This document shows, piece by piece, positions 1 through 13,029 of a DNA stretch of 13,294 nt; position 1 is the stretch's first letter, and the number at the start of each line of letters is the position of its first letter. The stretch is from Bdellovibrio sp. (lineage in GTDB: Bacteria; Myxococcota; SpSt-1050): positions 1 to 13,294 of the forward strand of contig DYEF01000014.1 of the NCBI GenBank assembly GCA_020725805.1, in the 5' to 3' direction. The notes under the pieces were generated by a model, which made no database searches, was not told where the DNA came from, and saw only the letters and a list, made by a program, of their open reading frames with translations. Position numbers and translations under genes: made by a program.

Positions 1-53
<53 letters not shown>

Positions 54-600: not shown

Positions 601-629
601 TTGATAATATCAGATAGATAGCATATATT
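601..629 (+). promoter_or_regulatory. Candidate sigma70-type promoter for the SGNH hydrolase gene
   Basis: Plus strand: -35 TTGATA at 601-606 (5 of 6), an exact 17-bp spacer, then -10 TATATT at 624-629 (5 of 6). Predicted start is near 636-637. The -10 box overlaps the TTG codon at 628, so a transcript from here cannot use that codon and would use ATG 649. Its -35 lies 7 bp from the -35 of the opposite promoter (588-593), so the two promoters are back to back and may compete for or share regulators. Confidence 0.55.
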
Positions 630-648
630 GAAACTTCATGATAAGGTT

Positions 649-1743
649 ATGAACAGATTATACAACATCCTCCTACTTTTTATTTCTGTAATTGTAGGCT
701 TAGTATTTTCTGAACTGATTTTCCGAAGCTTTCTGAACGTAAAATATCAGTTTAAGGAGAAGCTTCCGGGTATGAGAATCTATCCGTTTCCCGGTCTGGC
801 CTATGATATGGAAGAATGCAAAGAATGTACTATAAAGATTAATTCGCTTGGTCTGAGGGGAGGGGAAATAAGTATTGCCAAACCTGAAGGCACAGTCCGC
901 ATATTGATAATAGGGGATAGTGCTACCTTCGGGGCAGGTGTTGAAAAGGATGAGGAGACAATCCCCGGAAGGCTTGGCAAGCGGCTAAAAGATGAACCCT
1001 ATATCGAAAATATGAAATTTGAAGTAATCAACGGTGGTATCCCGGGATACGATATTCAGGAAATCTACCTTCATTACAAATATAAACTAAAACAACTGAA
1101 AAGTGACATTGTAATATACAATTTTTTCCCGAATGATTTTCTAAATGCCAAGTATAAGGTTGAAATAATTGATGGTAAACCTACACTTATAAGATTTGTG
1201 AATGCCGAAAGTCCCGGATTACAGATAATATCTTTCCTTCCCGAAAGACTTAATATAGCTTTAAATGAAAATTCACTCCTGTACAGATATGTATTATTTT
1301 ACTTTTCACAGCTGTTTTCAAAAGACAACTCTGAGCTATCCGCATATCTGGGTAAATTCCAGACAACAAATATAAAATATATGGATATGCTTATGGAAGA
1401 AATCAGAAAAGACAACTCAGAATTTGTATTGAGCAGCGAAATATATTCATTCTGTGCAAATTGCAGGGAACCGCTGACAGATACAAATTGTCCGGAGGAA
1501 CATGCATGCAAGTCGGTTTACAACCTGATAAAATGGATTGAAAACGAAATGAGGAAGAAGAATACTCCTTTTGTCTATCTATCCGAAGCCGTCGCTGATA
1601 TCGAACTGAAAGAGATTATGGTAGATAACTTTGCACATTATACAGGAAAGGCAAACGTAATTATGGCCGACAGGCTTTATGACTTCCTGATTCCCGTCAT
1701 AAAAGACAAATATAAAGCAGGTAAGGTACTGGGCAGATTCTAA
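649..1743 (+). CDS. Membrane-anchored SGNH/GDSL-type hydrolase
   Basis: Longest frame starts at TTG 628 (371 aa), but a good promoter -10 box covers that codon, so ATG 649 (364 aa) is preferred; numbers below are for the 371-residue form. Residues 10-30 form one hydrophobic N-terminal anchor, placing the rest outside the inner membrane. SGNH marks: the lead-in NSLGLRG (72-78); block I GDSATFG (96-102) with nucleophile Ser98; block II NGGIPG (135-140); block III PND (168-170); a C-terminal block V with Asp333 and His337. SGNH enzymes cleave or transfer ester-linked groups on lipids, glycans or peptidoglycan; the substrate is not evident. Odd points: Asp and His are spaced DxxxH rather than DxxH, and Cys pairs occur at 64/67, 276/279 and 288/294. 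The gene converges on the giant surface-protein gene with 6 bp between stops, so they are not co-transcribed. Confidence 0.85.
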   Translation: MNRLYNILLLFISVIVGLVFSELIFRSFLNVKYQFKEKLPGMRIYPFPGLAYDMEECKECTIKINSLGLRGGEISIAKPEGTVRILIIGDSATFGAGVEKDEETIPGRLGKRLKDEPYIENMKFEVINGGIPGYDIQEIYLHYKYKLKQLKSDIVIYNFFPNDFLNAKYKVEIIDGKPTLIRFVNAESPGLQIISFLPERLNIALNENSLLYRYVLFYFSQLFSKDNSELSAYLGKFQTTNIKYMDMLMEEIRKDNSEFVLSSEIYSFCANCREPLTDTNCPEEHACKSVYNLIKWIENEMRKKNTPFVYLSEAVADIELKEIMVDNFAHYTGKANVIMADRLYDFLIPVIKDKYKAGKVLGRF

Positions 1744-1792
1744 CCATTATCAATACTTCCCTGTTGCACGGACAAAGAAGCCGTGATGGTTA
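1741..1792. other. Nested inverted repeats over the convergent stop codons
   Basis: TAACCAT (1741-1747) is complementary to ATGGTTA (1786-1792), and inside it CACGG (1767-1771) pairs with CCGTG (1781-1785) around a 9-nt loop. The right-hand arms are contiguous; the left-hand arms are separated by 19 nt. The structure covers the stop codons of both convergent genes. It could be a shared end-of-transcript structure, but neither strand shows the T-run expected of an intrinsic terminator. Confidence 0.3.
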
Positions 1793-4700
1793 TAATCCCT
1801 CAGACGATAGAGATTGTCCGAGAAGTCAGTAAAATTGTAACCGAGTGCGAGTCTGAAATATCTGTTAAAGTTATAGCCCAAATCAATTAGAAAACCGCTC
1901 TTACTTTCATTATCCAGCACCGACAGCAATCTGTACTCAATACCTGCGGCAAACATCCTTTTATAGAAGTTATAGTTAATACGGTTTACCCACAATAAGG
2001 AATCAAGGGATTCTGAAGTCTGAACTGAGTAGTCGTTAATATATGAGCGTTTTAGGGCAAGCTTTTCAACAAGTTCAAAGCCATAAGGAAGTTCAAATAC
2101 CGGGATTATGCTGAATATATGAGAATAACTCTCAAACTCGCTCTTTTGCATAAAATCATACCTGTCCTCATACACATTTGAGAACTTCAGAAAGAGATTT
2201 ACCCAGTCAAAATCCTTGGGTCTTAGTGCCAGACCGAAACTGTTTTCGGAGAATCTGTATTCATCTCTTTTGTGCTCCAGATTATTGACCGCCAGATAAT
2301 GCCCGGTAAAACTAAGACTTATATCTCTGGAAATTCCCCACATCAAAGAGAGTCTTATAAGGTACTGTATCCTGTCCTCTCCCCCAAAATTCTCATCATT
2401 ATTGTCAAGTCTGAACTCTGTAAAGACTGAACCCTTGAGATTTTTCAATTTGACATATTCAACCGAGCCCGAAACGACATCACGCTTATTATCTCCCTGT
2501 GCAAAGCCCAGAGGGTAATTCAGTCCCATATATTCATAGATTAGGTCGTTGTTTATCCCTAATTTCTGGGTATACGAATATCCGTAAAGAGGTCCCCTCT
2601 TTTCATTTGAGTATGAATAATTCTGAACAGTCTGAAGGTTGGTATCAGTAATAAAGCCGGGTTCCTGATAGTTATATGAGAGCTCTCCGTTTGAAACCAC
2701 CTCCGTGTGCTCATAATTAATCAAAGCATTGAGGCCATCTGCCACAGCGAATCTACCTTTGGTTCCGAGTATCGCCCTCGAATTCAGTTGATTTGACAGG
2801 GTATCAATCTGGTACTCCCCGTAAGAGCTTATACCACCTGAGAGCTGTTCTTCTGCACCAAGGATAGAAGTTGCAACGAATTCACTTCCAAAACTACCTA
2901 CTCTCTCACCGAAATAGACACTCCCTGTTTCAGAGACGGGTATGCGTGCGGATATCTGAGTATAATTGTCAAGATTCAACCTTAGTGTATCAGAAAGGGT
3001 AAGATACAGTTTTGGTTTTACCTTGTATGTAGAACCAACCGTTATGTATAGTCTGTCTGTAATCTCATTAAACTCCTTTTCATCACCCCAGAATACTGAA
3101 TGGAGAGAGCCAAATACGTTTATCTTCGGAGTTACCTGATAATTCGTGCCTATACCCAGAATATCCGTTGAATAACTTTTATCCACAATCTTTGTGTTAA
3201 AGTCCGAATATGAATAAATATTTTCGGACAGCAGATCGAGTCTCTCTGTAAGTCTGTATTTCAGCTTCTGCTGGGACATAAACAAGGAAATATCGCCCAT
3301 CTTCTCCATATTAGAAAGTGAGAGAGGCTCAATAAAGTGTCCGTAAAAAGTCGCAGATGCCGAGAGGCTTTTGTCAATATCCTTTGAAATCTCGAGACCG
3401 GTACTCTTAATACCCTGACTGACAAGGGTATCCGAGCTTGTGAAATACGGTGTGTTCATTCTGAAAAAGAGTCTGTACGACAATAGCCTGTCCTCCTTTA
3501 ATAACAGGTCTGCAATATCACCCCTTGTCTCTATCATTGCAGAATATCCGTCTTTTGATTCCACTGACAGGGAGCGACCGCTTATACCTCCGTCAGTTGA
3601 TAAGAGATAATCGGAATAACCGTATTTACTCGCTGCAAACTCACCCTTTACTGATGAATATTTCAGATACTTCATCGAAATACCGACACTGTATAGTTTG
3701 TACCTTGTATCTCCGGATTCGAATTCATTGATTATTCCCCCGCCTATATCCAGTCTCTTGTCAAAATTCTCCTTAACATATGCACCGACAGAATAATTTT
3801 CATCTGATTTAAGACTGAAATAGTCATATTCAGCCAGAAGATAAACACTCCCGGAAGGATTCCCCGAAATACCGACGGATGACGGGGTCTCAATATAGGA
3901 ATTCAGGGGCTGATTCAGTATCAGAGTACCTGTTGAATAATTCATCGAATAGTCGGTGTATCGCACGAGTGTCTTTTCATATAAAGTATTACCGGTCAGC
4001 ATATCTCTGACAACTATCCTGATATTCTCGGAACCGTTTATTATATCAGAGACACCCAGAAAATATACAGAACCACCTGTTGCCTTCAGAATCGTCCTCT
4101 TGTGTCTGGAATACTCAACGGGGATACCGGCAAATAATCTTGAATAATTAGATGTGTGATACTTTTCAAATGTATTGTCAAGAGTGAGGCTCAGTCCGTA
4201 TAACCGTTTCTCGTATCTGAACTGGTCAAATCCCGCTATCTGTGTATTGAAATTGCCAAAGAGCAGTCTGTTTCTGTCCGCATCAATCCTCAGGTAGAAC
4301 TTATCAACCGAATCCACATCCTTGATTAAAGTCGAACTATCCCCGAAGGTCGGGAAATACATATAATCGGCTATGCGGTTTTCAAAGAGATTGAATTCCC
4401 TCTCCCTCATCTTTGAGGAGTCGAAGTGCAGGGTCATATCGATATCCTTAAATCCAAGGCGGTTTTTCAGATGATGCTTTGCATAGATTACTGCCTTTGA
4501 GTCAAGACCAAACCCTGCGGCCGTGATATGCGTAGAAGGCAAATATCCGTCCGGATAGAAATCAGAATTCGAAACAAGTCCGGTAAAGTACACCAATAAA
4601 AACGGCTCTCTCTCCTTTCTTTCTATCTCAAAGAATACCGCAGATGCCCTATTTTGTGAATCTACTATATCAATCACAACCTTGTTCCTGCCGTACTCGA

Positions 4701-7700
4701 GCGGAATCTCGAATCTGAAACTGCCGTCTGATGTTTTGATTTCGTTGTTTTTATAGAAAATCTTATTTCCTGAAGCAAGTTTTCCATAAACGACAGCATA
4801 CTCGGAGGTTGTGACTTTCTCCTCTGGTATGAAGATGATATTCTCTTCGGTCTTTACCTCTTTGCTTCTGTCAACAGGTGTAGCAGTGGCTTTCTCTGAT
4901 ATTGCAGGAGCATTGGCAGAAGCATCCGTCTTATTACTACTTGTTTCAGAAGGAACCTCTGTCTTTACCTCTTTTATATTTGCATCCTGTTTAGATACTT
5001 TATCACCGGCATTCTCTCCGCCCTTACTAATATGTATCTCTGCAAATCCGGTATCTGTTCTGTAAAAATCCGAATCCTTTATAACCCTCTTCTCTGTTTC
5101 ACATACAAGAGGAAAGTTTATCCTTGCAGGCAATCCGTTTGTAAAATACATATCCACACTCTCATAGAGCGGTTTAGTACCTGCCGGAAGAGAATTTCTG
5201 TCGAGTTTTACTATATGATAACCACTGTCAAGCTGAGGGAAGTGATAGAGACCATACTGGTCTGAAACGGCAATAAATCCGGTATCCAGCATAACTTTAG
5301 CAGATGAAATACCAACCTCACCTGTGTCGAATCTTTCATTATTGTTTTCATCACAGAAAACGCGTCCGAAGAGCATTGAGTTTTCGAAATCGTAATCTTT
5401 CCTTACATATACAGTATTATAAGCCGTCTTCACTACCCTGCCCGATTTCTCGAACAGAGTTGCCCGGTTAGATAGTTTCATAACATCGTAATCAAAACCT
5501 GCATAGACAAAGTACTTTAATACCTTAGTCTCATTAGCCGGAACACTGAACTCATTTGTTTTATAAAGCAGTTTTGATTTAAACTTCTCTGTCTTAACGC
5601 CAAGTCTTCCGTCCGGCTTCAAACCATTATCCTTCAGAGTACCAAGTGAAAAATCTTTCGATTTTATTATAAGCCCATTATCTGGTTCATCCGAAATATA
5701 GAATGTTATATCTTTCGAGGTCCCGTTTCTGACAACGAGAGAATATTCTATCAGCTCACCTTTTGTAACAACACTTTTATCTGCACTCTTATAGAATGTT
5801 ATCAGCGAAGAGGAACTGTCAACAGGGAGATTATTGTTTACCAGCCTCAGTTTGCCATTTTCGGCTTTGCTAAAGTCAATCTGCGTCAGATATTTCTTGT
5901 TTTCTATTACCTTAGGTGCAAAGTCATTTGACACATAACCTTCTATATCGGGTTTGATATTATTATCGGGCAAAATAAGAGCAGAAGGGAATACATAAGA
6001 ACCATCCGATGATACAACATCGAATTTATAGGATTTGTTATCAAAATCAAACCAGTAAATACCGTATCTGTCCGTTATAAACTCCTTCTTTATCCCGTCA
6101 TTTGCCGTAAGTATTACTTTAAGATTTTCAACAGGTAAGTATTTTTCTGATGAATACACAACACCTGTTGGGACTATTGCAAATTCGACATTTGAGAGCG
6201 AGCCTTCGGAGAGGTCAATATCCTTTACACCAATCAATGAATCCTTTTCATTGTAGGCATACAATCTGTATCTGCCCTGCGTAAGGTTCAATATTACAAA
6301 CTTTCCGTCACTGTCCGTATAATTTTTGTCGGCCGGTTTGAATTTTGGCGGCGGAAGAATCTTATCCTGTGAATCATCTATTCTCTCAGCAACAACCTTA
6401 TAACCCGAAAGCAAGATATCTGTATCATATATGAATTTCTTTTCATCTCTGTTCATCTTTCTAAAAAGAATCCCTTGAATCGAAACGGTCCCGATCTCCC
6501 CTCCCACAGTCAGTCTTACTGTATTGGACTCGAAATATTTATTTTCCTGAGTATATAAATACGCCTTATTTTCAATCAAATCCCCGTATTTTGCATCCTT
6601 CTTTACACTGACGTTGAAGATAATTTCCGCTCCCTGCAACTGAGATGAACCAAACTTAAGCCCTTTTACAATTATCAGACCATTATTATATCTTCCCGAA
6701 GGCGGCGGTACATAATTGAATTCGGCACCTTCCGGAAGAATTATATCCGATTTCCTGCCCGAAAACTGGACATACATAGGAATATCATCCATAAAGGTCA
6801 CTTCATCAACCCTGCTGTTCCCCTGACTTGTAACAGAGATTCTGAATGTAATCTTATCAGATGGCTCTACCTTTCCTCCGTTATTATCAGTGGCTGTTTT
6901 ATAGAGCTCATAGTAATTCTGAGGCAGGTCGCAGGTAGCGACATAGGTCTTCTGAATCCCGTTTTGGGGATTCCCATCATAATCACTCAAAATTTTCCCA
7001 TTGTCATATACAAGTTCTGCCTGATTCAGAAAACCTCCGCAGACATTCACAACTGCATCAAAGGTTATCAGGACATCCGTTGAAGGTGGCAGGTCATTTA
7101 TAACAAACCTGTTTGCAACCTGACCATTTATAGTGGCAACCTCTCCTTCATCTGAGTCAGATTCATCGGTGAGTGTCTTTGTAACCGAATTTATCATAAT
7201 CTTCATCGTTCCCGCAAGATAGCTCGCCTGAGAAGGTATTATATCCGTAATCTCAACCTTTTTGGCTGCTGAATTTCCCTCATTTCTGAACCTGAGATAA
7301 AACCTTAGATTGTCTCCTATATCCGCAACCGAATTGCCGTTTTTGTCTGAACTAATACTATATTCCTTAACAAGGGTAGTAATGAGCGGCTTATCCCCAA
7401 CCGGAATCTGAATCTCGGGTATCAGATATTCACCACCCTTGAATGTTATCCTTGCACCGTTTTTCATAACTGAGACATTCTTTGGAACGATTGCAGAAAA
7501 TTCCACTAATGCAATATTCTTCTCAAGCCCTCCATCGGATATTGGTGATACAACCCCTTTATTGCTGCCAGAACCCTCATATTTTGCCGAGTTTATCAGA
7601 AGCCCGCTCTCGAGAGGAGATTTACCGCCAATATCACTTACAACAGTACCGTTCAGCTTAGTAGAGCCTTTTACATACTCCCAGCCATATCTTGTTATTT

Positions 7701-10700
7701 CGTCATATAGTCTTGTCTCATTAGATGCAGTATCACCCGAATTGATTACCGATATCACAAAATCAATCTTATCACCGTATTTTACAGGCTCAGTCTTTGC
7801 GATATACTCTTTCTTGGATGAGGCGAAATAAGGTCCGCTATATCTTTTGACAGTCACAATAGTCGGGTCGTTCTTTTTCAGGGTTCTCGTATCGTCGCTC
7901 ACAAAAACAGTCTTTGCATTCGAACACTCAACAGCAGCCTGATTTATTATCTGTGAATTATCCTCTACATCGATATTCACCCTGACCTTATACCAGAGCT
8001 CTGCACTCTCACCCTTCCTCAGAACTTTCAGGGCGGAAATCGTATTGTAATCAAACTTTATCTCGCTTCCGTCATAATCCCCGCCGCTCATTACCTCTGT
8101 AACCTTGACTTTGGATTTATCCGGACTGTCTCTGATTATTATATCCCTTGCATCAATATCAGAATCATTTCTGACAATAAGTCTGTATATAAACTCTTCA
8201 TCCGGATATACATACTCTTCCGTCCTAATAATTTGGCTGCTTAGTCTGTAAGGAGTCTTTGAGATATAAAGTTCGGGTCTGTTTATTACAAGGACGGAGG
8301 TCTTATTTATTCCGTCAGATTTATCTGCATTATTATCGCTCAGAATCTCAGGCGAATTAGATGCTCTAAGTCTGCCTTGATTAGGAAGTATTGTGCCATC
8401 AGGGATATCCGGGCGGAGTTTTACTGCAAAATCAAATCTCTTATAATACTGCGGTGCAATACCGAGTTCTGAGAGAGTAAATGTAAGAGTGTGATTAGAG
8501 GCATCGTAACTACCCTCCCCTTTTGTCTGAACATCATCAATATGCTGATACATCTCGTCAAAAGTGTCTGTCACAACTATATCTCTTCCAAAATCACTCC
8601 CCGTATTCAGGACCAGTATGCTGTAATTAATTACAGAGCCCGGAGCAGTCTCCAAGGCATCGGCGGTCTTAATAATATAGATTTCAGGACTGCTCTTTAC
8701 TCTGAACTCCGTCGGGTCATCCAAAACTGACGTATCCGGGTCATCGGAGAGGAGCCTCCCCTTGTAATTTATGGCCTCAATATATGCCTGATTCCGGATC
8801 ATACTCCCATCTTTAATTGGAATTTTAACCTTTGCCTCTACCCTGATTGGAGTCAGATTCTTCAATTGTTTTGTACTTAATGTCAGAGTATTCTTATTTA
8901 GAATGCCTCCGGAACTCGACAGAATCTCAAGTGAATCAGGGAAGACATCAGTTATTACTGCATCACAGAGAGAGATATCATCTGTTGTAAAACTAATTTC
9001 ATAAATTACCTTTTCATTTACGGTAACTTCTTTAGGGGATAAAAGTTTCTTACTGAATTTCCCCTTTTTAGCTAAATTATCAACAACAAGTTCGAGATTA
9101 TTCGATTTTACAGGATTGAGAATCTCTCTCGATGTAGCCTCTGCATAATTAATAATCTTTCCCGAAATACACTCTCTGACTCTCGCCCTAAAAGAGAGAG
9201 TCTTTTTATAGGTCTCGCCGATGTTAATATCCGGAATATTCCATACGACCTGATTACCTGAGACAAATCCGCCGTCATTAACAGAGAGAATCTCCAATCT
9301 GTCCTTATCGATATAATCTGACACGACCACATCATTTGCAATACTGTTGCCGGTGTTTAATATCTCCACGACAAAATCTATCTCGTCTGATGGTCTTACA
9401 GGACCAATAATCTCCTCCCCGTTCTTATTTATTGCCTTGACCTTTAAGACAAGATAGGGAGATGAAGAGACGGTTATTAAAAGCGGGTCAGGTGATAGAG
9501 GCGTATCTGGGTCATCACTCAATACCTCTTTGGTTTCATTGGAAATGATTTTTGCCTGATTATAAATAGTTGCACCGTTCTCGAGCGGGCTCTTTATCTT
9601 ACCCTTAAATGATACCGTGCGGCTTTCATTGGGGTTCAAGAGTGGGATACTCCAGACGACCTCGTTGGAAATCAATACCCCGCCGTCCGATATATCGCTG
9701 ACAGATTCTATCTTACTGTCGAGCGGGTCTCTTATCTTTACCTGATTTGCAGGGACAGGACCGGAATTCCTGACGATAATACTGAATACAAGTGTATCTC
9801 CTGCATTTGCATTATGTGTCCGCTTTGCATAATCTCCGTCATAAGAGGCATATTTGAATGTATTTGACAGATTCGGTTCATCATAGACATAGACAGTAAC
9901 CGTATCAGTGTTCTTACTGTATGTCGTGCCGGCTATTATCGTACCAAAATTACTAATTACAGTAGAAGGCTTGGTAGGTGGCCTTACCTCTGCCCTGAAA
10001 ATAAAGGTCTTCTTCTCCTTATGGTTCAGAAGCGGCACATTCCAGTTTATTGTCTGGTTGGCATCCACAGAGCCGCCGGGAGTTATCAACTCTACATTCT
10101 TAAGGAGTTTCGAAACAGAATCAGACAGAATCAGATTTTTGAGCGGTCCGGGCGAATCATTTTCAAACTCGAGAGTAAATGTGAGGATATCTCCTCCATG
10201 AGCCCATATACTCTTCTGATTATTGACAAATTTTAAGGCATTTTTAATCTGAGGACCGAATTTTATGGTTATGTCTGTGCTGTCACCAAGGACTGATGTA
10301 ACCGGGTCATCACTGAATATCTTTTTGATATCCTGAGAATAAAGACTTGCCTGATTTTTGATGACGTAATTGTTTTCGATAGGGATATTTACCGTTGCAG
10401 AGAATCTGAGTGTCCTCGTTATTCCGACTCCGATTATAAGATACTCCCATACTATTCTGCCCTGAGAGAGTTTTCCGCCATCAGATATACTACTTGGGTC
10501 TACTGTCAGATTTGAATCGATTATATCCTCGACAACTACATTATTTGCGGCACCGTTACCAGTGTTTCTGATTGTGATATAGTAATCGATTCTATCTCCG
10601 GGTTTTCCGGTCCTGACCTCTGCCCCGTTTATCTTTGCACCTTTCTGAAAGAGAGAAATATTCGGTCCTGAGACAACCGTCAGGGAGGAGGAGACATCAA

Positions 10701-13029
10701 TGAAATAATTCGGTTCATCAGTCGAATAAATCCGGGCTGTGTTCTTAAATTCCACAGAGCCCGGCGGGATTGCATAGCTGATTCTCACTCGGTATCTGAT
10801 AGTAGCCGTCTCATTTGTGGCAAGTGAAAAGTTATAGAAGATGAGTTTATTTGCTCCGATGCTGTATTTCATCTGTGAGGGACTCATTGAGTCCACAGCA
10901 ATGAATTCTGCATAACTCGAGAGGGTATCTTCTACCTGAATACCTACTGTGCGTGTTCCGGTATTCCTCACATTTATCGTATACAGAAGCTCGTCACCGG
11001 GTTCCGGATTACCTCCGTTAATATCAACGACAGATTTGGAAGATGAACTCAGATCAGAGCCATATCTTACTGTAACAACTGTCGGGTCTGACGGAGCAGG
11101 TGTTGTGGGGTCATCGGAGAGATAAACCCTGTCGAGGGAACCACCCGACAGAGTACCCTGATTCTTTATCTGATAGCCGTTTATCGGATCCGAATTCCCC
11201 CATTCGGAAACCGTATCCACCCTTAGAATATAACGGATATACTGTGATGCATACGGGTCAAATGAGATGTTCTTTATCACAATCGCACTCTGCGTTGACT
11301 CATTAATGCTCCCCGGCGGATTGTTAACACTGACAATTCTGGTATGTTTTGGAATAATATCCTCAAATTTCTCGATAGTTATAGGGAATGACGAATTGCT
11401 CTTTATTCGTACTTCGTAATTGATGCTATCCCCCGGCTCCAGATAACTCTTCTGCCTGCCATAGGAGTCTGTAATTGACAGAATCTTTTTGGTAAATTCT
11501 GATACCGAAGCCAACTTTACAAGTGTTGATACCCTGTTGGTAGTAAAAGGAGAAATCTCACTGCATTTTATCGTAGCACTGTTGTAAATGTAGGTCCCAC
11601 CGGAGGTATTCTCATTGATTTTCACCTTAAACTGAATTCTCTTCCGATAGGTAATTCCGACCTTTACTGTACCTATATTCATTCCGGAAAACAGCGGCGA
11701 ATTACCGCCGACATCCGGAACAAGCGAACCATCCAGATATGTGGAATTAGGGACATAAGTGGTATTTGCCGGAAGGGTATCTGTAATAATTACATTTGTA
11801 GCATCCTGTGAACCTGTGTTAATGACATCGATGGTATATGTCAGTATCTCACCGGCAGAGGCCTCCAGTTTATCTACATGTTTCTGGGAATTTTCAAAAA
11901 TCGGTGCAATAGTATCCAGACCGAGTGCTATAAATCCTAAAAATACGCTCTCACCACCACCGGCTGCGGAATCATTGAAATCAGGTGCATTCTGATTGCC
12001 GGATACAGGATGGACCGGGAACCCGTCCCCTACACCGGCCTGTACAATAAGTGAAGTATCACCGGGCCTGAGGACATTTAATCCTCCTACCCCTATGTTG
12101 AAGGTATCTATATCGATTCCTACACCGTTTGCCTCGACACCGGAATATGACGAATTCCATATGTTTTTGGGAGGACTTGCGCTGTTCTGAAGATAGATAT
12201 AATCACCGCCGGGCCTTTTTACTCTTATAAAATCGTCACAGGTAACACAATACAGGGGGTCTGTCTTCGGAAGCAGAGATTGTTCGGGCTCACCAAGCTG
12301 AGAGTCACCCTCAAGTCCGAAGAAAGTCAGTTCCACATAAGCCGGATTACCAACTACAAATCCGTCGAGTGTAAAAGGAGGTGCAATTCCCGCAGAACTT
12401 GTAGTCTCATCCAGATGATAAAACCCATCGTAGATTACAATGTCTCTGTAGCGCGAAAAAGTCTGCGATTCCCATATTACAATCATCGACCATCCGGCAT
12501 ATCTCGCCTGACAATGAGGGTCGATATTGCAGTTTGATGAGATAAATGCATCAATGGAACCAACTGTGTATATATCGCCCCTCTTTACGGATAACCCCTT
12601 TAGCTGGCTTGTAACATCTGCCCGGCAGTAGTAGAAATTACCGAGGGAGAGCGGAAGCATCGTACACTGGGTCGTAGAAATATTATGAGTCTGTCCGTAA
12701 GGTGTTTTAATCGTTGCCGTGTTATCCGCTATCGCAGGATAATCATAGGTAGAACCCGACCAGAAGAGATAAGCCTTCTTTATCTTGGCATCATTTGGAA
12801 AATCCTGAACGAAAGAGGCTGATGCCTCAGAGAGCAGATAGAAATTGTACATCCCGTATTCATACTGGTCTGCGAGTGTGAGAGTCGAACCGAGCGCGGC
12901 ATAAGAGCCTCTGAGTTTATTCTCCTGATAAATCTTCGATGGGACATTACCGTCGATGTCGGCAAAAAGATCCGCAGACCACAGCCCACAGGTCAGCGCA
13001 GAAACAATAATTATAAATACCCGGTTCAC
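1750..13029 (-). CDS. Giant DUF11-repeat surface protein with C-terminal outer-membrane beta-barrel
   Basis: A single intact 3759-residue frame (over 400 kDa). Order of parts: signal peptide (1-23); beta-rich head with six Cys (24-370); 13 DUF11 modules (371-2175); regulatory-type beta folds (2176-2395); a 14th DUF11-like module (2396-2543); SdrD B-like module (2550-2646); Lys/Glu/Ser/Thr linker (2647-2743); small beta domain (2744-2808); conserved pre-barrel block and barrel (2810-3759) ending GFFVRATGKY. The final Tyr after alternating residues fits the beta-signal by which outer-membrane proteins are recognised for assembly. I infer a stalk held in the outer membrane by its own C-terminal barrel, with a role in adhesion, envelope structure or cell contact; this is not shown. 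Start is GTG 13029: an in-frame TAA lies five codons upstream, and the signal peptide begins at once. There is no Shine-Dalgarno. No frameshift, transposon or stop interrupts the gene. Confidence 0.93.
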   Translation of the reverse strand: MNRVFIIIVSALTCGLWSADLFADIDGNVPSKIYQENKLRGSYAALGSTLTLADQYEYGMYNFYLLSEASASFVQDFPNDAKIKKAYLFWSGSTYDYPAIADNTATIKTPYGQTHNISTTQCTMLPLSLGNFYYCRADVTSQLKGLSVKRGDIYTVGSIDAFISSNCNIDPHCQARYAGWSMIVIWESQTFSRYRDIVIYDGFYHLDETTSSAGIAPPFTLDGFVVGNPAYVELTFFGLEGDSQLGEPEQSLLPKTDPLYCVTCDDFIRVKRPGGDYIYLQNSASPPKNIWNSSYSGVEANGVGIDIDTFNIGVGGLNVLRPGDTSLIVQAGVGDGFPVHPVSGNQNAPDFNDSAAGGGESVFLGFIALGLDTIAPIFENSQKHVDKLEASAGEILTYTIDVINTGSQDATNVIITDTLPANTTYVPNSTYLDGSLVPDVGGNSPLFSGMNIGTVKVGITYRKRIQFKVKINENTSGGTYIYNSATIKCSEISPFTTNRVSTLVKLASVSEFTKKILSITDSYGRQKSYLEPGDSINYEVRIKSNSSFPITIEKFEDIIPKHTRIVSVNNPPGSINESTQSAIVIKNISFDPYASQYIRYILRVDTVSEWGNSDPINGYQIKNQGTLSGGSLDRVYLSDDPTTPAPSDPTVVTVRYGSDLSSSSKSVVDINGGNPEPGDELLYTINVRNTGTRTVGIQVEDTLSSYAEFIAVDSMSPSQMKYSIGANKLIFYNFSLATNETATIRYRVRISYAIPPGSVEFKNTARIYSTDEPNYFIDVSSSLTVVSGPNISLFQKGAKINGAEVRTGKPGDRIDYYITIRNTGNGAANNVVVEDIIDSNLTVDPSSISDGGKLSQGRIVWEYLIIGVGITRTLRFSATVNIPIENNYVIKNQASLYSQDIKKIFSDDPVTSVLGDSTDITIKFGPQIKNALKFVNNQKSIWAHGGDILTFTLEFENDSPGPLKNLILSDSVSKLLKNVELITPGGSVDANQTINWNVPLLNHKEKKTFIFRAEVRPPTKPSTVISNFGTIIAGTTYSKNTDTVTVYVYDEPNLSNTFKYASYDGDYAKRTHNANAGDTLVFSIIVRNSGPVPANQVKIRDPLDSKIESVSDISDGGVLISNEVVWSIPLLNPNESRTVSFKGKIKSPLENGATIYNQAKIISNETKEVLSDDPDTPLSPDPLLITVSSSPYLVLKVKAINKNGEEIIGPVRPSDEIDFVVEILNTGNSIANDVVVSDYIDKDRLEILSVNDGGFVSGNQVVWNIPDINIGETYKKTLSFRARVRECISGKIINYAEATSREILNPVKSNNLELVVDNLAKKGKFSKKLLSPKEVTVNEKVIYEISFTTDDISLCDAVITDVFPDSLEILSSSGGILNKNTLTLSTKQLKNLTPIRVEAKVKIPIKDGSMIRNQAYIEAINYKGRLLSDDPDTSVLDDPTEFRVKSSPEIYIIKTADALETAPGSVINYSILVLNTGSDFGRDIVVTDTFDEMYQHIDDVQTKGEGSYDASNHTLTFTLSELGIAPQYYKRFDFAVKLRPDIPDGTILPNQGRLRASNSPEILSDNNADKSDGINKTSVLVINRPELYISKTPYRLSSQIIRTEEYVYPDEEFIYRLIVRNDSDIDARDIIIRDSPDKSKVKVTEVMSGGDYDGSEIKFDYNTISALKVLRKGESAELWYKVRVNIDVEDNSQIINQAAVECSNAKTVFVSDDTRTLKKNDPTIVTVKRYSGPYFASSKKEYIAKTEPVKYGDKIDFVISVINSGDTASNETRLYDEITRYGWEYVKGSTKLNGTVVSDIGGKSPLESGLLINSAKYEGSGSNKGVVSPISDGGLEKNIALVEFSAIVPKNVSVMKNGARITFKGGEYLIPEIQIPVGDKPLITTLVKEYSISSDKNGNSVADIGDNLRFYLRFRNEGNSAAKKVEITDIIPSQASYLAGTMKIMINSVTKTLTDESDSDEGEVATINGQVANRFVINDLPPSTDVLITFDAVVNVCGGFLNQAELVYDNGKILSDYDGNPQNGIQKTYVATCDLPQNYYELYKTATDNNGGKVEPSDKITFRISVTSQGNSRVDEVTFMDDIPMYVQFSGRKSDIILPEGAEFNYVPPPSGRYNNGLIIVKGLKFGSSQLQGAEIIFNVSVKKDAKYGDLIENKAYLYTQENKYFESNTVRLTVGGEIGTVSIQGILFRKMNRDEKKFIYDTDILLSGYKVVAERIDDSQDKILPPPKFKPADKNYTDSDGKFVILNLTQGRYRLYAYNEKDSLIGVKDIDLSEGSLSNVEFAIVPTGVVYSSEKYLPVENLKVILTANDGIKKEFITDRYGIYWFDFDNKSYKFDVVSSDGSYVFPSALILPDNNIKPDIEGYVSNDFAPKVIENKKYLTQIDFSKAENGKLRLVNNNLPVDSSSSLITFYKSADKSVVTKGELIEYSLVVRNGTSKDITFYISDEPDNGLIIKSKDFSLGTLKDNGLKPDGRLGVKTEKFKSKLLYKTNEFSVPANETKVLKYFVYAGFDYDVMKLSNRATLFEKSGRVVKTAYNTVYVRKDYDFENSMLFGRVFCDENNNERFDTGEVGISSAKVMLDTGFIAVSDQYGLYHFPQLDSGYHIVKLDRNSLPAGTKPLYESVDMYFTNGLPARINFPLVCETEKRVIKDSDFYRTDTGFAEIHISKGGENAGDKVSKQDANIKEVKTEVPSETSSNKTDASANAPAISEKATATPVDRSKEVKTEENIIFIPEEKVTTSEYAVVYGKLASGNKIFYKNNEIKTSDGSFRFEIPLEYGRNKVVIDIVDSQNRASAVFFEIERKEREPFLLVYFTGLVSNSDFYPDGYLPSTHITAAGFGLDSKAVIYAKHHLKNRLGFKDIDMTLHFDSSKMREREFNLFENRIADYMYFPTFGDSSTLIKDVDSVDKFYLRIDADRNRLLFGNFNTQIAGFDQFRYEKRLYGLSLTLDNTFEKYHTSNYSRLFAGIPVEYSRHKRTILKATGGSVYFLGVSDIINGSENIRIVVRDMLTGNTLYEKTLVRYTDYSMNYSTGTLILNQPLNSYIETPSSVGISGNPSGSVYLLAEYDYFSLKSDENYSVGAYVKENFDKRLDIGGGIINEFESGDTRYKLYSVGISMKYLKYSSVKGEFAASKYGYSDYLLSTDGGISGRSLSVESKDGYSAMIETRGDIADLLLKEDRLLSYRLFFRMNTPYFTSSDTLVSQGIKSTGLEISKDIDKSLSASATFYGHFIEPLSLSNMEKMGDISLFMSQQKLKYRLTERLDLLSENIYSYSDFNTKIVDKSYSTDILGIGTNYQVTPKINVFGSLHSVFWGDEKEFNEITDRLYITVGSTYKVKPKLYLTLSDTLRLNLDNYTQISARIPVSETGSVYFGERVGSFGSEFVATSILGAEEQLSGGISSYGEYQIDTLSNQLNSRAILGTKGRFAVADGLNALINYEHTEVVSNGELSYNYQEPGFITDTNLQTVQNYSYSNEKRGPLYGYSYTQKLGINNDLIYEYMGLNYPLGFAQGDNKRDVVSGSVEYVKLKNLKGSVFTEFRLDNNDENFGGEDRIQYLIRLSLMWGISRDISLSFTGHYLAVNNLEHKRDEYRFSENSFGLALRPKDFDWVNLFLKFSNVYEDRYDFMQKSEFESYSHIFSIIPVFELPYGFELVEKLALKRSYINDYSVQTSESLDSLLWVNRINYNFYKRMFAAGIEYRLLSVLDNESKSGFLIDLGYNFNRYFRLALGYNFTDFSDNLYRLRDYNHHGFFVRATGKY
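1753..4602 (-). other. Conserved pre-barrel block and large outer-membrane beta-barrel
   Basis: Residues 2810-3759, free of cysteine. The first part holds recognisable family marks: YFPTFGDSST (2891-2900), FYLRIDADRNRLLFGNFNTQ (2911-2930), RLYGLSLTL (2942-2950), TGGSVYFLGVSDIINGSENI (2984-3003), VVRDMLTG (3006-3013) and YTDYSMNYSTGTLILNQPL (3024-3042). From about 3060 to the end the sequence is a run of short alternating hydrophobic/polar segments ending in turns or loops; by eye I count roughly 30-36 strands. The last strand ends in Tyr3759. The block before it resembles, in style, the DYxxDYxxGR segments of SprA-type giant barrels. Topology and strand number need modelling. Confidence 0.7.
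4606..4800 (-). other. Small beta domain preceding the membrane part
   Basis: Residues 2744-2808: YAVVYGKLASGNKIFYKN (2744-2761), SDGSFRFEIPLEYGRNKVVI (2767-2786), then VDSQNRASAVFFEIERK to 2805. The pattern, a value-assignment turn followed by a DG-F-F strand, a YGRN turn and a xDSQxR turn, is that of a Big/FN3-like beta-sandwich repeat commonly placed next to periplasmic or pre-barrel regions. Confidence 0.5.
4801..5091 (-). other. Low-complexity Lys/Glu/Ser/Thr/Ala linker with a 14-bp direct repeat
   Basis: Residues 2647-2743 lack hydrophobic patterning and are rich in Lys, Glu, Ser, Thr and Ala, so probably disordered. The hexapeptide KEVKTE occurs twice (2686-2691 and 2723-2728); in DNA the plus strand shows gtctttacctcttt at 4850-4863 and again at 4961-4974, 111 bp apart (37 codons, in frame). 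It joins the SdrD B-like module to the membrane part and could act as a hinge. Confidence 0.6.
5092..5382 (-). other. SdrD B-like module with acidic loop
   Basis: Residues 2550-2646. GRVFCDENNNERFDTGE (2555-2571) is the classic SdrD B opening, with Asp/Asn/Glu side chains (2560-2564, Asp2568, Glu2571) placed as in calcium-binding loops. It continues with SDQYGLYHFPQLDSGYHIVK (2589-2608) and a closing segment FTNGLPARINFPL (2629-2641). In staphylococcal Sdr proteins this fold binds calcium and stiffens the stalk. Here it lies close to the barrel, as it does in other large DUF11/barrel proteins I know of. Confidence 0.7.
5401..5844 (-). other. Fourteenth, detached DUF11-like module
   Basis: Residues 2396-2543. 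After the regulatory-type folds a DUF11 pattern returns: KGELIEYSLVVRNGTS (2423-2438), ISDEPDNG (2445-2452), FSVPANETKVLKYFVYA (2494-2510) and the closing strand LSNRATLF (2519-2526). It sits just before the SdrD B-like module and is separated from the main array by about 220 residues. Confidence 0.6.
5845..6504 (-). other. Carboxypeptidase-regulatory/Cna-B-like folds of the giant protein
   Basis: Residues 2176-2395. Two stretches look like seven-stranded prealbumin-type folds: 2180-2287, with the turn TDSDGKFVILNLTQGRYRLY (2238-2257), and 2288-2355, with ITDRYGIYWFDF (2318-2329). The pattern of an acidic DG(K/R) or RYG turn, a beta strand, then G-Y/R-Y is typical of carboxypeptidase-regulatory and Cna-B domains, which act as rigid stalk spacers. 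The remainder (2356-2395) is not recognised. Confidence 0.55.
6505..11919 (-). repeat. Array of 13 tandem DUF11 modules
   Basis: Approximate module limits in residues: 371-505, 506-656, 657-787, 788-923, 924-1049, 1050-1189, 1190-1318, 1319-1445, 1446-1583, 1584-1729, 1730-1881, 1882-2033, 2034-2175. Most carry the family pattern: a PGD-type turn, a strand like YTINVRNTG, a VxxxD turn (ITDTLP in the first), a GG turn, a W/L strand such as VVWNIP, and a closing strand with NQA or similar. The modules are 125-155 residues long and strongly diverged, so there are no long near-identical DNA repeats. Acidic SDDP-type linkers end modules 2, 4, 6, 8 and 10, with weaker forms ending 9 and 12. Module 12 also has a DxNxNxxxDxGD loop (1895-1906) that could bind calcium. 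DUF11 modules are Ig-like rods, so the array should form an extended stalk. Confidence 0.85.
11920..12960 (-). other. N-terminal beta-sandwich-like head domain of the giant protein
   Basis: Residues 24-370. Recognisable marks are AYLFWSG (86-92), DVTS (138-141), YTVGSIDAF (154-162), AGWSMIVIWE (178-187) and IVIYDGF (197-203). From memory, the same series (a YLFWSG-like strand, a DVT turn, an AGWSLVV-like strand and a DGF turn) precedes DUF11 arrays in other large bacterial surface proteins and resembles DUF3344-type domains. Six cysteines (122, 135, 167, 173, 261, 264) could form up to three disulfides in the oxidising periplasm or at the surface. As the membrane-distal tip it is the best candidate for ligand or cell contact, but no binding site can be read. 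Confidence 0.6.
12961..13029 (-). other. Signal peptide of the giant protein
   Basis: Residues 1-23: short basic start (MNR), hydrophobic core VFIIIVSALTCGLW, then a polar region with likely signal peptidase I cleavage after Ala23 (LFA before DIDGN). Cys14 is preceded by ALT, which does not fit a lipobox, so a lipoprotein is unlikely. Sec export to the periplasm is inferred. Confidence 0.85.

Follow-up and report, generated by a model that had tools for sequence, protein, structure and literature searches.

A single giant gene and its modular product

The window analysed here, a stretch of 13,294 bases, is an entire contig of a 3.29-Mb genome assembled in 115 contigs, and most of it is taken up by one gene. 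This gene runs from position 13029 to position 1750 on the minus strand, is read from a GTG start codon and encodes a protein of 3759 amino acids; the uninterrupted frame that the initial annotation had reported, without giving its strand, is thereby borne out. The open frame comprises 3760 codons at about 41% GC. An in-frame stop codon is found just 5' of the GTG and a clear Shine-Dalgarno sequence is absent, so that the exact start is the sole soft point. A chance open reading frame, or an artefact of assembly or frame, was considered and discarded in view of the length of the frame, a longest exact repeat of 14 bp within the gene, the low pairwise identity of the DUF11 modules of its product (mean 21%, maximum 38%), and a pN of 0.07-0.12 relative to an orthologue from the same genus (genome G001), with synonymous sites near saturation. 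Hence, the giant gene is real and is a single open frame under purifying selection.

It had also been remarked that the window holds no helper gene. This is correct; as the contig ends with the window, however, only 265 bp are visible upstream of the giant gene. A 371-amino-acid SGNH/GDSL hydrolase with an N-terminal hydrophobic anchor is encoded convergently with the giant gene (628-1743, plus strand), the two ends lying 6 bp apart, and a 160-amino-acid protein with a phasin-like start and a Lys-rich tail, whose Pfam matches are all sub-threshold, is encoded at 61-543 on the minus strand. A terminator-like hairpin with T-rich sequence is present just inside the start of the giant gene (12972-12991, minus strand); one was seen where 0.2 were expected, and it may be due to chance. 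The giant protein comprises the following features, from its N- to its C-terminus:

12958 to 13029, minus strand: signal peptide, residues 1-24, read by eye in the translation
11890 to 12957, minus strand: head domain, residues 25-380 (matches in relatives, alignment)
6553 to 11883, minus strand: DUF11/CLIPPER modules 1-13, residues 383-2159 (profile matches; Pfam PF01345, E=2e-97)
Modules 1-5, minus strand: residues 383-488, 514-628, 664-769, 794-898 and 928-1032 (repeat profile)
Modules 6-10, minus strand: residues 1060-1163, 1197-1299, 1325-1417, 1456-1555 and 1590-1700 (repeat profile)
Modules 11-13, minus strand: residues 1740-1861, 1890-2006 and 2042-2159 (repeat profile)
5815 to 6537, minus strand: CarboxypepD_reg/Cna-B-like spacers, residues ~2165-2405 (PF13620, two stretches, best 2236-2284)
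5452 to 5796, minus strand: DUF11/CLIPPER module 14, residues 2412-2526 (repeat profile, E=2.5e-21)
5098 to 5364, minus strand: SdrD_B-like module, residues ~2556-2644 (PF17210 at 2556-2611)
4825 to 5097, minus strand: low-complexity linker, candidate lumen-threading segment, residues ~2645-2735 (composition)
4606 to 4824, minus strand: Ig-like domain before the barrel, residues 2736-2808 (AlphaFold2 strands at model residues 4-70; weak PF09136)
1753 to 4602, minus strand: giant outer-membrane barrel, ~42 strands predicted, residues 2810-3759 (AlphaFold2, Foldseek, VIA-align, conservation over 59 sequences)
3853 to 4083, minus strand: plug-like insert of 77 residues between predicted strands 8 and 9, residues 2983-3059 (conservation, strand parity)
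1753 to 1782, minus strand: C-terminal beta-signal ...GFFVRATGKY, residues 3750-3759 (aromatic ends in relatives; stop codon at 1750-1752)

Head and DUF11 stalk

The signal peptide, the Cys-containing head, the 14 DUF11-like modules, the Cna-B/SdrD-type spacers and the disordered-looking linker that the initial annotation had recognized were all recovered. Cleavage of the signal peptide, which was predicted by eye from the translation, probably occurs between ...LFA and DIDG, and the same-genus orthologue possesses a similar junction (...IWA and DVDG). The head contains six Cys residues, four of which (122, 135, 167 and 173) are invariant in an alignment of five sequences. Of 58 relatives, 20 possess the head at E<=0.001, for the most part at the beginning of the long open reading frames that also contain the barrel, with identities outside the genus of mostly about 37-50%. 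AlphaFold2 modeled the head with a pLDDT of 60, and the jelly-roll matches of this model were set aside because it is too poor. The architecture of the protein makes an adhesive role of the head reasonably likely.

A profile built on the protein's own repeats finds exactly 14 DUF11 modules, and Pfam finds 13 tandem DUF11 stretches (PF01345; 321.8 bits against a cut-off of 24.6). Among the spacers, the CarboxypepD_reg (PF13620) and SdrD_B (PF17210) matches both fall just under the Pfam cut-offs; the SdrD_B-like module resembles in its position the one that precedes the OmpA-like end in those relatives in which stalk and barrel are encoded by separate genes. Inspection of the alignments revealed a Lys-Asp-Asn triad in all 14 modules, with the Lys on strand A, the Asp in an xDxx motif and the Asn in an xNx[AG] motif; the Asp column is invariant and the Asn column nearly so. 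In 9IFR, a DUF11 domain of an Acinetobacter fibrillar adhesin with an OmpA anchor (PMC12617251), this triad forms a real isopeptide bond, and each of the 14 modules is therefore probably stapled by an intramolecular Lys-Asn bond, as judged from the aligned residues. The complete set of triads is notable because some DUF11 domains lack the bond according to the CLIPPER authors (PMC12617251). At an estimated 4 nm per module, 14 modules would give a stalk of about 55 nm.

The Acinetobacter protein in question, B9T28_05395 of Acinetobacter silvestris, is matched by our module profile (9IFR, E 7.5e-6) and, like the giant protein, combines an N-terminal adhesive part with tandem DUF11 domains that carry the triad (PMC12617251). 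It ends in an OmpA domain, however, with no barrel in its chain or described together with it, whereas the protein studied here has the barrel fused and is devoid of OmpA. The best match of the stalk profile in sequence searches of the PDB is the grappling hook protein GhpA of Aureispira (9flp, E 6.8e-12), which is also giant; only the Ig-like modules match, and evidence for a hook is absent from the giant protein. The same genome encodes a second DUF11-bearing secreted protein (L040:5255-9136; G000:C45) of 1293 amino acids with one DUF11 match; it ends in the Cys-rich tail ...DNGGCGCSYLE, with no membrane helix after it.

The predicted C-terminal barrel

For residues 2735-3759 (1025 residues), AlphaFold2 returned a model with a pLDDT of 83.2 and a pTM of 0.80 from an alignment of 59 sequences. 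The closure of the barrel, the number of strands and the position of the plug-like insert were read from the predicted secondary structure; this count gives 42 strands, and about 40 would be the safer figure. Such a barrel would exceed every solved single-chain pore of its kind in size. Both the alignment and the structure prediction support the proposal, made from the translation, of a C-terminal barrel of some 950 residues with Tyr as its last residue. Aromatic ends resembling G[FWY][FY]..xxG.[YF] are present in nearly all relatives. Side chains alternate in these strands (z 7.9), as would be expected of a membrane barrel; since soluble beta sheets show such alternation too, this is minor evidence.

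Outer-membrane barrels generally have their C-terminus in the periplasm; by strand parity, strand 1 would therefore start in the periplasm as well and the long loops would lie outside. The 20 turns on the periplasmic side measure at most 11 amino acids, with the exception of the plug-like insert, and mostly disordered loops of 40 and 67 residues are found opposite. The insert falls, by the same parity, in a periplasmic-side turn and is the most conserved segment of the barrel region, with a mean majority-residue frequency of 0.57; in 15 of 75 columns this frequency reaches at least 90%.

No Pfam or NCBIfam family covers the barrel, and sequence searches of the PDB with the single barrel, the barrel profile and the whole N-terminal part yielded nothing meaningful. 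In structural comparisons, the best Foldseek match of the model is SprA; that of VIA-align is FimD, with a Z score of 14.2 (335 of 1025 residues, 13.8 A rmsd), and SprA also ranks near the top there, with a Z score of 13.6 (401 residues, large rmsd). These matches suggest a large, protein-conducting type of barrel and do not speak for homology. SprA/Sov, the type IX translocon of Bacteroidota with 36 strands and a pore of about 7 nm (PMC7463736), shares with the giant protein the property of being a very large single-chain outer-membrane barrel, which holds for the latter by prediction only. The cargo of the type IX system is separate and carries C-terminal signals, whereas the stalk studied here is part of the same chain as the barrel. 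A possible likeness to FimD-type ushers, whose barrel has 24 strands, would lie in a protein-conducting barrel with a plug that is placed in one of the first periplasmic turns; the usher family is absent among the Pfam matches, and chaperone or pilin genes were not seen.

The initial annotation had compared the protein to an autotransporter, and this comparison holds for topology: as in type Va autotransporters, a signal peptide, a passenger, a linker and a C-terminal barrel with an aromatic end follow each other. It fails for the family. The barrel of type Va autotransporters is a PF03797 domain of 12 strands, and their passenger is typically a beta-helix, whereas the giant protein has about 42 predicted strands, an Ig-like passenger, and an Ig-like domain (in relatives also OmpA) between linker and barrel. 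The type Va-like topology, and SprA as the best Foldseek match, might be taken to mean that this is an ordinary type V autotransporter or type IX translocon component which the databases have missed. In the same direction, a distant barrel homologue, encoded in a complete genome of 9 Mb from the phylum, has a weak match to the SprA family TIGR04189 (E=0.0067), but at 13.6 bits this lies far from the cut-off of 200. Moreover, the PF03797 beta-domain is absent from the protein (Pfam) and from the genome at E<=1, and TIGR04189 has no significant match in the protein (NCBIfam) and none in the genome. We therefore consider membership in one of these known families very improbable.

Fused and split forms, topology and a proposed mechanism

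Among 195 genomes of the phylum, 120 encode the barrel, as do 102 of the 149 good ones; this includes a more divergent form, mostly in open reading frames of 1200-1450 amino acids, that is present in most of the large-genome family f9. It was also found in hundreds of other contigs, including those of Proteobacteria, Nitrospirota, Acidobacteriota and Campylobacterota. The barrel family is widespread, and it is absent from Pfam and NCBIfam. No description of this barrel with DUF11 stalks was found in the open-access literature; an earlier description elsewhere is possible. In several families of the phylum, head and barrel share open reading frames of 3800-5350 amino acids, with 14-18 DUF11-like modules between them in the fused genes that are complete at both ends, and they form the two conserved ends of the Myxococcota long form.

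In Proteobacteria, stalk and barrel are often encoded apart: the barrel gene immediately follows a giant repeat gene, and its product generally carries a signal peptide of its own. This split form was found in Kangiella, Colwellia, Lysobacter, Pseudoalteromonas, Caldimonas, Hydrogenophaga, the Geobacteraceae and others. About 23 of the roughly 25 free-standing barrel genes that are complete at their 5' end are preceded by an open reading frame, usually for a giant repeat protein, that lies no more than 100 bp away or overlaps them. Annotated records in which a DUF11 or SdrD protein is followed by the barrel come from Croceibacterium, Pseudochrobactrum and Eleftheria, and the names given to such pairs in plasmid records vary (OmpA family, SdrD B-like, TonB-dependent receptor, hypothetical). 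On the barrel tree, at least four changes between the fused and the split state are required. The most compelling evidence for a joint function of stalk and barrel is this gene pairing, together with the switching between the two forms.

Two further arrangements were observed. In the complete 9-Mb genome mentioned above (L139:2500-12833), a 1198-amino-acid barrel homologue is part of an apparent operon with genes for a 632-amino-acid Invasin_D3/Big_1 stalk protein, a beta-propeller protein and a MYXO-CTERM protein. Plasmid p4 of Acinetobacter haemolyticus (L151:8395-18464), typed as mobilizable, encodes a DUF11 protein with a barrel-like match, then an OmpA-family protein, and then another DUF11 protein.

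The segment between stalk and barrel bears on the topology of the chain. The linker of about 90 residues is of low complexity (76% P/A/S/T/E/K/G/D/Q/N, 20% large hydrophobic residues), and several relatives possess low-complexity linkers at the equivalent position. Pfam detects no OmpA domain in the giant protein; a relative of the same order is also devoid of it, and linker and Ig-like domain are kept in both. Among eight long fused Myxococcota relatives scanned with Pfam, six have OmpA between stalk and barrel, including divergent copies that our own OmpA profile missed. Some free-standing barrels carry SPOR and OmpA (Geobacteraceae) or OmpA (Eleftheria) at their N-terminus, and in most of the split stalks examined the C-terminal end consists, by inspection, of an SdrD_B-like module and then an OmpA-like part, with the OmpA of Croceibacterium confirmed by Pfam. 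Both OmpA and SPOR domains are peptidoglycan-binding, which would place the part of the chain directly in front of the barrel, and the start of strand 1, in the periplasm. The Ig-like domain, which follows OmpA/SPOR domains in relatives, would be periplasmic as well. A peptidoglycan-binding site adjacent to the barrel, beyond which the stalk lies, agrees with an external fibre rooted through the lumen, in a topology that is taken from the relatives.

A periplasmic segment before the barrel would also suit an arrangement in which the stalk serves as a periplasmic spacer. SlpA/OmpM proteins of Deinococcus and other diderms likewise unite an N-terminal stalk and a large C-terminal barrel in one chain, the stalk of SlpA being periplasmic and its barrel 30-stranded, and three further barrels of D. 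radiodurans are predicted at 38 strands (PMC9388160); SlpA is also among the structural matches of our model (Foldseek, VIA-align). These proteins, however, possess SLH and coiled coil where the giant protein has head and DUF11 modules, and their peptidoglycan-binding part occupies the stalk end that is remote from the barrel. Pfam finds no SLH match in the protein and no other known peptidoglycan-binding domain at its distal end, and in relatives OmpA adjoins the barrel and not the far end of the stalk. In addition, 14 to 18 modules, or roughly 55-70 nm, are too long for the usual periplasm, as had been argued for 14 modules in the initial annotation, and DUF11 repeats are known to build the stalks of extracellular adhesins (PMC12617251). 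We thus regard a periplasmic spacer as unlikely, and a position of the stalk outside the cell as quite likely.

An extracellular stalk might nevertheless be exported otherwise, by a BAM/TAM-assisted hairpin or another translocon, with the barrel as an anchor or a separate pore, for instance for substrate uptake. Classical autotransporters need BAM and cross the membrane with a small barrel, and some relatives of the giant barrel are labelled TonB-dependent receptors, by annotation only. Against this, a barrel of about 40 strands is far bigger than an anchor requires, and free-standing barrels stay operon-linked to stalk genes, several with their own OmpA anchor, so that the barrel is not needed there as an anchor. 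Furthermore, no conserved neighbour gene, and hence no conserved helper, was found around the fused genes, and no SprA-type translocon gene was found in this genome. Export by another route appears to us even somewhat less likely than a periplasmic spacer.

Building on the observed domain order, its conservation, the gene pairing, the triads in the sequence and the confident barrel-type prediction, we favor, as fairly probable, the reading that the giant protein is a self-anchoring fibrillar adhesin with its stalk outside and its linker running through its own giant barrel. The proposal of one polypeptide that combines a DUF11 stalk with its own C-terminal outer-membrane barrel is supported in this respect. 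After export via Sec, the C-terminal region would form a single barrel of about 40 strands in the outer membrane, and the Ig-like domain just before it would stay in the periplasm. The disordered linker would then run through the lumen, a step that we rate as somewhat probable, and the 14-module stalk would present the conserved Cys-containing head, which might bind a surface, a neighbour or prey. The barrel would serve as the export pore of its own stalk; we give this step an even chance, and it would explain both the size of the barrel and its plug-like insert. How so long an N-terminal part crosses the membrane had been left unclear in the initial annotation. A candidate answer is that a barrel of SprA size with a plug and a periplasmic segment in front of it would allow the linker to thread the lumen, and the candidate helper is the barrel itself, which is a separate gene beside the stalk gene in other bacteria. 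More tentatively, and with slightly more doubt than confidence, we suggest a separate class of outer-membrane secretion device, in which a barrel of about 40 strands, larger than SprA, exports and then holds an isopeptide-stapled fibre; barrel and fibre would share one chain in Myxococcota as well as in some further lineages, while many Proteobacteria would encode them as a two-gene module, with anchoring to peptidoglycan through OmpA/SPOR domains in many cases.

If this reading is true, OmpA-anchored DUF11 fibrillar adhesins would gain a candidate for a missing part, the outer-membrane pore for the stalk. The data also point to a widespread barrel family outside Pfam and NCBIfam whose predicted size exceeds that of the 36-strand SprA. 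Since split versions are present in cultivable bacteria, the question of export would be testable by the deletion of a single gene.
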